Positions 35,214 through 39,929 of a DNA stretch of 64,000 nt are shown here, piece after piece (within the stretch, counting starts at the first letter, position 1; each line of letters opens with the position of its first letter). The translations under genes and the position numbers were made by a program. The notes under the pieces are model-generated. The model worked only from the letters and a program-made list of their open reading frames with translations, did not search any database and was not told the DNA's origin. The stretch covers positions 772,644 through 836,643 of the forward strand of contig JAFDWQ010000001.1 of the NCBI GenBank assembly GCA_018268395.1, written 5' to 3'. Source of the stretch: Armatimonadota bacterium (GTDB lineage Bacteria; Armatimonadota; Fimbriimonadia; Fimbriimonadales; Fimbriimonadaceae).

Positions 35214-35229
35214 GTCTATAATAGTAGAC
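35214..35229 (+). promoter_or_regulatory. Palindromic operator overlapping the imuB -10 (candidate damage-response operator)
   Basis: Perfect inverted repeat GTCTA-N6-TAGAC. The canonical -10 TATAAT (35217-35222) lies inside it, so a bound repressor would block RNA polymerase. It ends 4 nt before the imuB ATG. Mutagenic polymerase cassettes are classically LexA-controlled, so a lineage-specific LexA site is the first hypothesis. The motif is not the E. coli, Bacillus or alphaproteobacterial LexA box. Confidence 0.55.
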
Positions 35230-35233
35230 ACAT

Positions 35234-36418
35234 ATGCACTATATCCTCTACGTCGCACTGGAGGGGTTCTACGTGGCCGACCAGGACGACGGATCCGGTC
35301 GCGCGACCGTCGTCCATCAGGACTCCACGGTGCTGGACGCCTGCAGGCTCGCTCGGGAACGGGGGGTCGTCCCTGGGACCGCACTGTCCGAGGCCAAGTC
35401 CATCCTCCGCGAGGAGGGTCGCTTTCTTGCCTTCTCCCCAGACGTCTATGCCCGCGCCCGTGAGGAGTGGCTGGACACGTGCCTGCGGTTTTCAGACAGG
35501 ATCGAGCCAGGACGACCGCACGAGGCTTACGTCGATCTGACGGGCCATGCCCGTCCGGCCCGTGCCGCCGACGAGCTACTCGCCGCGCTCGCACCTCGGC
35601 AGCCGGTGGCCGGGTTAGCCCCGGCGAAGTGGATCGCGCGGGTGGAAGCGAGGAGCGTGGACGTCGGCGCAGCGGCGTTCGGACTTCCGGTCATGGAGGC
35701 CTTGACCGATGTCGCCTCGTTCCTGGGCAGGATCCCGACGACCCTGCTCTTGCCCATCGCCGCTCCGTACCGGGAACGGTTGTGTTTTCTGGGATACCGC
35801 TGGACCCGGGACGTGGCCCGAGCAGGTCTTCACGAACTCAGGTCCCAGTTCGGATCTGACGCCATCGCGATACAGGAGGCTGCCCAAGGGAGGGTCTTAG
35901 ACCAGGTCGCGCCCTCGTATCCCGAGCGGTCCCTGACCGTGTCGTTGGAATTCGGCGCGGCACTCGACGACAGGGTCGTCCTCGACCTGGGCCTCCGGCA
36001 CCTGGCGCAACGGTGCGCGGCCCGATTGTGCGAGACCGACCAGACGGCGCAGGGCGTAGTGGCGCGGTTCGAGTCCGAGGATGGCGCGAGCGCGCTGGGG
36101 AAACGGGAGTTCGCCAAGCCAGCGCAGACGGCGACGGTGTTGGCCGCAGCGTTGCACGCGTTGTGGGACACGTCCCGTTGCCCGTTCCCGCCTGTATCGG
36201 CCACGGTGCACCTGACCAGGCTGAGACCGGCCCCGCGTAGCCAGCGATCGTTCACCGGAACGGAATCGTACGCAGAACGGTCGCAGACCTGCGACCGCGT
36301 CGTGCGGACGCTCACGGCAGCCTACGGCGACGGGACACTGGTGAAGGCGCGCGATCTGCGCGTCCCCCGCAGGGAACTCGTCCTGCGGGCGTGGAGACAT
36401 GCGACAGGATGGCATTGA
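35234..36418 (+). CDS. imuB: ImuB-like Y-family polymerase homolog, catalytically inactive type
   Basis: 394 aa. The fold begins YILYVALEGFYVAD where active Y-family enzymes have a DxD-type metal motif, and the SIDE motif is replaced by RPHE (GRPHEAYVDLTG). The first metal ligand and the Asp of SIDE are thus lost, as in ImuB, which acts as a beta-clamp adaptor for DnaE2. The C-terminal half fits a little-finger domain plus an ImuB tail. The ATG is 11 nt after TATAAT. It overlaps dnaE2 by 20 nt. No imuA or sulA-like gene is present. Confidence 0.85.
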   Translation: MHYILYVALEGFYVADQDDGSGRATVVHQDSTVLDACRLARERGVVPGTALSEAKSILREEGRFLAFSPDVYARAREEWLDTCLRFSDRIEPGRPHEAYVDLTGHARPARAADELLAALAPRQPVAGLAPAKWIARVEARSVDVGAAAFGLPVMEALTDVASFLGRIPTTLLLPIAAPYRERLCFLGYRWTRDVARAGLHELRSQFGSDAIAIQEAAQGRVLDQVAPSYPERSLTVSLEFGAALDDRVVLDLGLRHLAQRCAARLCETDQTAQGVVARFESEDGASALGKREFAKPAQTATVLAAALHALWDTSRCPFPPVSATVHLTRLRPAPRSQRSFTGTESYAERSQTCDRVVRTLTAAYGDGTLVKARDLRVPRRELVLRAWRHATGWH

Positions 36419-39400
36419 GGTCCTCGCCCGCTGGCGCGAGGCGGGCGAATGGTGGAGCGGCGAAGAGCCCCGTGAGATCGTCCAGTGGCGGGACCGCAAA
36501 GGCGTGCGCCGCGAACGGATCCGGACGATGCCGCACGTCGCCCCTACCCACCAAAAGGTGGATTGGCACGAAGACAACTCCGTCGAGATCACTTTAAGAC
36601 CGCGCAAGACGCGGGACGAGAAGGTCATGACCGCGTGCGGCGCTTACCGTGAGCCCGCCCCGTCCTTGTCACGATCGCCCCAAACGACGTATGCCCCGCT
36701 CCACCTGCAGTCGGGTTACTCTTATGGGAGGAGCGTGCTGCTCGCCCGAGAGATCCCACGGAGGTGCGCGACGCTGGGGATCACGGCAGCGGCCCTGGTC
36801 GACAGGTTTTCATTGACCGGAGCGATGGAGTTCGCGAAGGAGTGCGCCGATTGCGGCGTGAAACCCTTGATCGGCGCGACCTTCGAACTCGACACCGGTG
36901 GCGAGGTCGTCCTGATCGCCAAAGACAAGTCCGGATACGCGTCGTTATCGCGGCTCGTCACGGACTGCCATCTGGAAGAGCCACGGCTCTTCCCTTTATG
37001 CGACCGTGAACGGCTCGAAAGGCACACACGGGGACTGCTATGTCTGACAGGAGGGGACTCGGGCAGGTTGGACAGGCTCGTGGTGGCAGGACGCTACAGA
37101 GAGGCGTCGGAGTGGCTCGCGTTCCTGTGCGGGCTCTACGGACATGGGGACGTCTTCGTGGAGATCGAGCGGACATCGTTACCCTGGGGACTGTCGACTG
37201 AAAAGGCGCTGACCGAACTGGCGTCGGTACACGGCGTGCTCTCCGTCGCAGGAGGCAGCGTGACCCACGCCCGTCCAGAGGACTTCGCGGTGCAAGACGT
37301 CGCGCTATGCGCAGAGTCGCTCTGCACCGTGGACGAGGTCGTGGGGAGGAAGTCTACGCGCCATCCTGACCAGCCCCCTCTCGACGAGCGACCGTTGCGC
37401 GCCTTGAACGGGGAACGCTACCTGCGCAGCCCGATGGAAGCACGGAACGCGTTCGCGGGACGCCACGACCTCTTGGAGAACACCCGGTGCGTCTCCGAGC
37501 GGTGCGACGAGGACGTGATGCCTGGCCGGACGAGGCTTCCCGAGATGTTCGGAGACGGTCCTAGCGTCCTCCGCGAGGCGACCATCGCCGGCGCGCACAG
37601 GTGGCACCGCAACGTGTCCCGCCCGTTGATGAGGCGGATCGAGCACGAGTTGGAACGCATCGCCCGACTCGGGTTCGCCGATCACTTCCTGGTCGCGTGG
37701 GAGATGTGCGAATGGGCCCAGAGCCGACAGATCCACTTTAGCGGGAGAGGGTCGGTCGTCGACTCGGCTGTCGCTTACTGCCTGGGGTTCAGCCGTATCG
37801 ACGCCTTCAAGCACAACCTCCACTTCGACCGGTTCCTTCCTGAAGACGGGAGCAAACGGCCAGACATCGATATCGACTTCGAAGCCAAGAGGAGGGAGGA
37901 CGTGCGGACCCACCTTACGGTGAAGTACGGCCGGGACCGTGTCGCCACCGTCGCCGCGGTCGGAGCCTACAACACCCGCGGGATCATCCGCGAGGTCGGA
38001 AAGGCGCTCGGACTGTCCCCAGAAGCGATCGGGTTCCTGGCAAAGCGCATCCACGGAGGCGTCGTCCCCGACCAGTTGGAGAACGCGCTCGACAAGCGTC
38101 CCGAACTCCGCGACAGCGCGATCGACCGAGGCCGGCTCCAGTGGTTGTTCCGTCTCGCCCGCAGCCTTGCGGACGTACCGCGCAACGTTCGTGCCCATTC
38201 CTCCGGCGTCGTCATCAGTGCGGACCCGCTCTGCGAGACGGTGCCCGTGCAGTGGTCAGGAGGAGCCTCCGGCGACGAAGAAGACTTCCTCCGGATCGTC
38301 CAGTGGGACAAACGCAGCGCCAAACACTGCTTTGACAAGTTCGACATCCTGTGCCTGCGCGGACAGGACGTGCTCTCGGGTACGGAAGCCAGGGTGAGGT
38401 TGCGCGACTCTGGCTTCGATGTCCGAGAGATCGGGACTTCGGACGAGGAAGCGTTCCGGGCGATGCGGGCCGGAGAATTGATCGGCGTCCCTCAATCGGC
38501 CTCTCCCGCCATGCGACAGGCCCACATGCGGCTCCGGACGCAAGACCTGCACGACGCGAGCCTCGTACAAGCCGGGATCCGCCCTGGAGTCGGCGGTGCG
38601 GTCAAGCTCAACGAGCTGATCGCGAGAAGGCGCGGGCTCAAGCCGTTCGGGTTCGACCATCCGGACTTCGAAGGCATCCTCGGACACACTTACGGCATCG
38701 TCGTGTTCCAAGAGCAGATCGACCAGCTCCTCCAAGTGTTCGCCGGTTACGGGAGCGGCGAGGCCGAAGACATCCGCGACGAGATCCATAAACGAAGGCG
38801 CGAGGACTATGGCCAGGTCATCCGTGACGAGGTCGTCAACCGTGTGGTGAAGAACGGGTACCCGCAGAAGACCGCCGAGCAGGTGTTCGAGTATGTCGCG
38901 GGATTCAAAGGCTACGGGTTCGCCCAGGGTCACGCCCTCGCGTTCGCTGAGATCTCCTTGAGGTCGATCCATTGCCAACAGAATTTTCCGGCCGAGTACT
39001 TCGCCTCCCTTCTCGACGCCCAGCCCGCAGGGTATTACGGCCCGTGTACCCTTGTCAACGAGGCCCGCGCCAGGGGCGTGACGCTCCTTCCGGTGGACAT
39101 CGGCCGTAGCGGCCCCGGGTTTCTCGTCGAAGACGTCAGGAACGAAGCGACCGGAGGACTGCTCGTCCCCAATGCCGGGATCCGGGTCTCACTGGGTTCG
39201 GTCCACGGGCTTTCGAGAGCTACGGTCGACCGGACCGTGGCAGAGCGCGACGTGCGACCGTTCGCCGGGTTTCCCGACTATGCGGCCCGGGTGCGACCGT
39301 CGAGGGACGAGTTGGAGAACCTCGTCCTGTGCGGAGCGTTCGATTCGAGCTTCCCGAACCGTAGGGCCCTGCTATGGTCGGTGCCATCGATGCTCGATTG

Positions 39401-39929
39401 GGCGAAGAACTGCTCGGAAGGCCTGTTCGGCACCGACTCGTCTCCGTCCCCGTTCGTCGATCCCACGGTCCCGGACTTTACCGATGCGGAAAAGGCCGTT
39501 CGAGAACGGCAGATCCTTGGCCTGGACGTGGCCCGACACCTGATGGGCTACGAACGGGAGCGCGTGACCGCTCGCGGCGGTGTCACGTGCGAAGAGGCGA
39601 GGCGTCTGACGGACGGGAAGAAGGCGATCGTGGTCGGTAACGCGATCCGCCTGAGGTTCCCCCCGACGCCGAGCGGGAAACGCGTGGTGTTTTTCGACCT
39701 TGAGGACGAGAGCGGGCTCTTGAACGTCACGTGCTTCGACGCGGCTTACCGCCGCGACGGGCACGCGATCGTGACGAGCCCGTACGTCACGCTCGTCGGC
39801 CGGAGCCAATGGCGGGACGGTCATTCTGCGTTCATCGTTCAGCGCGTTTTCCCGTACAGCCCCGTCATCACCCGGCTCGTCGACATTGAAAAACTCCCGG
39901 TCGTCACCGCGGATTTCCTAGTCGGTTGA
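36399..39929 (+). CDS. dnaE2: DnaE2-like error-prone DNA polymerase III alpha subunit with extra N-terminal domain
   Basis: 1176 aa. Residues 1-75 (VLARWREAGEWWSGEEPRE) resemble the small DUF6504-type protein found beside imuB/dnaE2, here fused. A PHP domain (97-300) has degenerate metal ligands (LHLQS for LHxHS). The polymerase palm has the three Asp of PDIDIDFE (489, 491, 493) and the third catalytic Asp at 649 (DKFDILCL), so polymerase activity is expected. Helix-hairpin and OB-fold domains follow (about 1060-1160). With ImuB it would carry out damage-induced mutagenic translesion synthesis. An internal ATG at 36627 could make a form without the extra domain. Confidence 0.88.
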   Translation: MRQDGIEVLARWREAGEWWSGEEPREIVQWRDRKGVRRERIRTMPHVAPTHQKVDWHEDNSVEITLRPRKTRDEKVMTACGAYREPAPSLSRSPQTTYAPLHLQSGYSYGRSVLLAREIPRRCATLGITAAALVDRFSLTGAMEFAKECADCGVKPLIGATFELDTGGEVVLIAKDKSGYASLSRLVTDCHLEEPRLFPLCDRERLERHTRGLLCLTGGDSGRLDRLVVAGRYREASEWLAFLCGLYGHGDVFVEIERTSLPWGLSTEKALTELASVHGVLSVAGGSVTHARPEDFAVQDVALCAESLCTVDEVVGRKSTRHPDQPPLDERPLRALNGERYLRSPMEARNAFAGRHDLLENTRCVSERCDEDVMPGRTRLPEMFGDGPSVLREATIAGAHRWHRNVSRPLMRRIEHELERIARLGFADHFLVAWEMCEWAQSRQIHFSGRGSVVDSAVAYCLGFSRIDAFKHNLHFDRFLPEDGSKRPDIDIDFEAKRREDVRTHLTVKYGRDRVATVAAVGAYNTRGIIREVGKALGLSPEAIGFLAKRIHGGVVPDQLENALDKRPELRDSAIDRGRLQWLFRLARSLADVPRNVRAHSSGVVISADPLCETVPVQWSGGASGDEEDFLRIVQWDKRSAKHCFDKFDILCLRGQDVLSGTEARVRLRDSGFDVREIGTSDEEAFRAMRAGELIGVPQSASPAMRQAHMRLRTQDLHDASLVQAGIRPGVGGAVKLNELIARRRGLKPFGFDHPDFEGILGHTYGIVVFQEQIDQLLQVFAGYGSGEAEDIRDEIHKRRREDYGQVIRDEVVNRVVKNGYPQKTAEQVFEYVAGFKGYGFAQGHALAFAEISLRSIHCQQNFPAEYFASLLDAQPAGYYGPCTLVNEARARGVTLLPVDIGRSGPGFLVEDVRNEATGGLLVPNAGIRVSLGSVHGLSRATVDRTVAERDVRPFAGFPDYAARVRPSRDELENLVLCGAFDSSFPNRRALLWSVPSMLDWAKNCSEGLFGTDSSPSPFVDPTVPDFTDAEKAVRERQILGLDVARHLMGYERERVTARGGVTCEEARRLTDGKKAIVVGNAIRLRFPPTPSGKRVVFFDLEDESGLLNVTCFDAAYRRDGHAIVTSPYVTLVGRSQWRDGHSAFIVQRVFPYSPVITRLVDIEKLPVVTADFLVG

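Follow-up and report, generated by a model that had tools for sequence, protein, structure and literature searches.

A probable LexA operator of Fimbriimonadales at the start of an inactive Y-family polymerase–dnaE2 operon

LexA boxes described elsewhere include GTTC-N7-GTTC in Alphaproteobacteria, TTAC-N3-GTAA in Bdellovibrio, GGTT-N10-AACC in Geobacter, CTAA-N5-TTAG in Bacteroidetes and TTACACATATTTTWTACATA in Balneolaeota, as given in the accessible parts of two papers (PMC8565304; PMC7739468). The site reported here, with the consensus AATAGTAGACATATGTCTACTATT, the half-site ATAGTAGAC and a spacing of N4, matches no box named in those parts of the same two papers (PMC8565304; PMC7739468). 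It resembles the LexA boxes of other phyla in that a dyad or repeat lies at lexA, recA and error-prone polymerase promoters and occurs alongside a canonical LexA or LexA-like repressor. We take the nearest known box to ATAGTAGAC to be the Xanthomonas LexA site (TTAG/TACTA type). A search of the literature on LexA in Armatimonadetes, Armatimonadota and Fimbriimonas returned no report of a LexA box, and the novelty of the box is provisional because most subscription papers lay outside that search.

The operon behind this site is comparable to the imuA-imuB-dnaE2 cassette, as an inactive Y-family protein is followed by DnaE2 under SOS-type control (predicted here), but it differs from that cassette in that no imuA was detected in it, and only one RecA-family protein was hit in the genome. 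It is closer to the inactive-PolY/DnaE2/RecA associations of PMC12926913.

The operon and its start region

The window, that is, the whole stretch of 64 kb analyzed here, contains the following features around the start of the operon.

35214..35229, no strand: GTCTA-N6-TAGAC palindrome, GTCTATAATAGTAGAC; exact in the sequence, left arm judged coincidental
35217..35222, + strand: -10 element TATAAT, read from the sequence; precedes GTAGAC in most orthologs
35220..35243, no strand: proposed LexA operator AATAGTAGAC-ACAT-ATGCACTATA (consensus AATAGTAGACATATGTCTACTATT); best held-out genome-wide profile hit
35221..35229, + strand: left half-site ATAGTAGAC; GTAGAC at the operator position in 22 of 28 orthologs plus G022
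35234..35242, - strand: right half-site, ATGCACTAT on the + strand, degenerate; overlaps the first three codons, with CTAT at a fixed distance from GTAGAC
35234..36418, + strand: inactive Y-family polymerase-like protein (imuB-like), 394 aa; IMS and IMS_C domains, weak Pol IV model matches
36399..39929, + strand: dnaE2-type error-prone polymerase; PHP, DNA_pol3_alpha, finger and HHH_6 domains, best NCBIfam match an error-prone DNA polymerase subfamily

The sequence-only reading had labeled the first gene imuB, which is apt insofar as it encodes a Y-family protein without catalytic residues beside dnaE2, the usual catalytic Asp/Asp-Glu motifs being replaced by VALEGFY and PHEAYVDL. The gene is better named an inactive Y-family polymerase. 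imuA was not detected: none was seen in the operon, and the sole PF00154 hit in the genome is recA itself, in a search that a very diverged imuA would escape. The DnaE2 protein carries an N-terminal extension of ~90 aa (36399-36695, ARWREAGEWW...), which is conserved in relatives and for which a Pfam search returned no credible family; by eye it recalls a C-terminal ImuB region, possibly reflecting a fusion. No good -35 element was seen upstream of the TATAAT at 35217-35222.

A half-site shared by imuB, lexA and recA promoters

The promoter comparison drew on 41 genomes: 40 relatives plus the genome of the window itself. An ortholog of the gene downstream turned up in 30 of these, and 28 of the corresponding promoters were read. 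In most of these 28 imuB promoters, TATAATAGTAGAC (TATAAT followed by AGTAGAC) stands directly before the start codon. Among the 6-mers of the lexA promoters GTAGAC ranks first, occurring in 28 of 30 against ~1.5 (1.45) expected from the flanks, and it is also among the top 6-mers at imuB (23 of 28 against 1.0 expected, one of the 23, L044, being a chance copy in an upstream gene, while G022 does have the site) and at recA (16 of 30 against 1.3). A downstream inverted partner at spacing 4 (GTAGAC-N4-GTCTAC) is preferred at imuB and recA, to a degree reached by none of 200 shuffles, and comparison of the imuB, recA, Pol IV and other promoters yields the dyad AATAGTAGAC-ATAT-GTCTACTATT. The right half of the window's operator is degenerate, with 3 mismatches in 16 core positions. 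The distance between its CTAT and GTAGAC is nevertheless constant in the orthologs while the codon phase varies (L017 versus L018 and L026), suggesting that selection acts on the DNA and not on the protein.

The arrangement differs between genes. GTAGAC typically lies just behind the -35 element at lexA (TTGACA-GGTAGACA), between -35 and -10, and behind the -10 element in many recA promoters. The N4 dyad is not clearly visible at lexA promoters, and in the genome's own lexA promoter, TTGACAGGTAGACA, only a half-site is clear. In a set of lexA promoters (L057, L060, L061, L068, L070, L074-L076), GTAGAC is accompanied by another half-site, GTCTAC or TTCTAC, at a distance of exactly 18 nt, which is kept in promoters with different -35 to -10 spacings; the pair flanks the -10 element. 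The recA promoters of G009, G019 and G023 (L078, L106 and L092) carry GTAGAC as a direct repeat with a spacing of 4 or 6. One fixed dyad does not explain the lexA geometry, nor the recA promoters in which GTAGAC is directly repeated.

On counts alone, the loose palindrome TAGTAGAC-N4-GTCTACTA at 3 mismatches was no commoner than the control in five genomes, and therefore a weighted profile together with gene context was used instead. The profile was built from 45 sites of other genomes, with none from the window genome, and its consensus, AATAGTAGACATATGTCTACTATn, is a perfect palindrome with T as the last base. Across the 3.7 Mb of the window genome it gave exactly three hits at E<=10, of which the window site ranked first (E 0.043); the other two belong to a small sigma70-region-4-like protein and a DinB/YfiT-family protein. 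Within the window the operator scored 34.2 bits against 9.6 for the runner-up, and the genome's own recA and lexA sites scored 21.8 bits and a weaker 14.7 bits, respectively. A control profile of reversed sites gave no hit in the window genome and three in 13 genomes, compared with dozens for the real profile, where most of the 13 supplied training sites and only G000, G007 and G013 did not.

A further site, TAATAGACACGTGTCTGCTT, belongs to the window genome's own Pol IV-type gene. Among the other genomes, operators were found ahead of Pol IV, uvrA, SPL-like radical SAM and LigD_N (LigD 3'-phosphoesterase-domain) genes, as well as glyoxalase-fold and class II ribonucleotide reductase genes; the operator lies just upstream of the reductase gene in G001 and G003 (L290 and L299). 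In many genomes a strong operator marks the start of a small protein of ~140-150 aa (L137:1753-2207; G000:C2:26252; orthologs in L138, L145, L147, L149, L265, L326 and L315). Most members of this family have a weak sigma70-region-4-like domain, and the protein is a possible second-tier SOS regulator. Since lexA, recA, Pol IV and other genes share the half-site across Fimbriimonadales, it is taken as the SOS box of that lineage.

LexA as the probable repressor

The window genome encodes one canonical LexA, with a match above cut-off to TIGR00498 (the NCBI LexA equivalog) and with S24 (PF00717) and LexA_DNA_bind (PF01726) domains; its cleavage site and its Ser/Lys residues are conserved among relatives (AAG, GDSM and KR). 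LexA was used to scan named genomes, the close relatives being Fimbriimonadaceae and other Fimbriimonadales of the phylum Armatimonadota. In genomes of Fimbriimonadales and in those named Chthonomonas, GTAGAC is found together with the recognition helix SLRGVTVHL, an Armatimonadetes LexA with the helix SSSTVHSHL has a promoter without GTAGAC, and two named genomes with the same helix SLRGVTVHL (L188 and L189) have a lexA promoter without GTAGAC. G036 (L044, L086 and L268) has SVRGVQNHL as its helix and GTATAC-TGGT-GTATAC as its operator at both recA and imuB, while the lexA promoter keeps GTAGAC; helix and operator thus apparently co-vary in this single genome, as judged from the sequences.

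We therefore regard it as highly probable that 35220-35243 is a LexA operator, the SOS box of Fimbriimonadales, that represses the inactive-PolY/dnaE2 operon; binding, repression and induction by damage are predicted here by analogy with established LexA biology. A LexA dimer would sit on two inward-facing half-sites ATAGTAGAC 4 bp apart, the left one over the end of the -10 element and the likely transcription start, the right one within the opening codons of the Y-family gene. LexA at 35220-35243 would thereby cover the end of the -10 element, the start point and the start codon, and RNA polymerase would be blocked. Upon DNA damage, RecA filaments would promote LexA self-cleavage and hence its release, and the operon would then be expressed from a nearly leaderless mRNA.

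A broader proposal is possible, and we advance it with considerable reserve: the Fimbriimonadales LexA may recognize GTAGAC in several arrangements (as an inverted N4 pair at polymerase genes, as a direct N4 repeat at some recA genes and as the 18-nt pair at lexA) and may also control the undescribed small sigma70-region-4-like regulator, which would make a two-tier SOS response.

Alternative readings and the SOS response of the lineage

Instead of LexA, a different damage regulator might have the dyad as its operator, such as another S24 repressor or the small, SOS-linked protein with the sigma70-region-4-like domain: in several genomes the site of that small regulator ranks first or second, and the link to LexA is itself read from sequence. 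We consider this unlikely, as the motif is present in nearly all lexA promoters, matching the autoregulation expected of LexA, LexA occurs in nearly all genomes whereas the small regulator is seen in only some, and the apparent co-variation in G036 argues against it as well. Still less probable is that TATAATAGTAGAC represents an extended promoter or start-region signal without any repressor. GTAGAC does follow the -10 element immediately in most imuB promoters, but its positions at lexA and recA, its occurrence in both orientations with an inverted partner, and the scarcity of profile hits, many of them at repair genes, do not fit such a signal.

The sequence-only reading had placed a repressor site over the -10 element and the start of a putative mutagenic polymerase operon, which is supported, albeit by the dyad at 35220-35243 and not by the perfect GTCTA-N6-TAGAC drawn at 35214-35229. 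That palindrome, GTCTATAATAGTAGAC, is present with TATAAT inside and ends 4 nt before the ATG (35234), as described, yet it is not the functional unit. It is the sole match at <=1 mismatch in the window, where shuffled windows contain a mean of 0.6 copies of the 16-mer at <=1 mismatch (48 of 100 have at least one). The whole genome holds the exact palindrome once, and 19 copies at <=1 mismatch against 19 for a control pattern, and the exact motif is absent from the genome's own lexA and recA promoters, which refutes it as drawn by the criterion that the sequence-only reading itself had set. Among the imuB promoters it appears in 1 of 28, that of the window genome, the left arm being unconserved. 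The TA of this arm already forms the first two letters of TATAAT, which leaves GTC as the only addition, with a ~2% chance by base composition. The strongly conserved right arm, TAGAC, belongs to a different, slightly shifted palindrome of 22-24 bases, the dyad at 35220-35243, so that the palindrome as drawn is half coincidence. As a motif, the 16-mer is ruled out by the genome counts and the ortholog promoters. That GTCTA-N6-TAGAC is itself the operator in this species, with half-sites facing outward around the -10 element, is hardly credible despite its perfect 10-bp symmetry there, given the unconserved left arm, half of it accounted for by TATAAT, and the absence of genome-wide excess and of copies at lexA and recA.

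The accompanying proposal of a new damage-regulator motif is largely right in its interpretation, namely a LexA-type motif of this lineage that seems not to have been described, and wrong in the motif drawn. Repeated changes have altered the SOS box from one phylum to another, with its targets largely constant. What is gained here is a concrete consensus, a LexA recognition helix that matches it and a regulon that may have new members, which together make the SOS response of a little-cultivated phylum directly testable in vitro.
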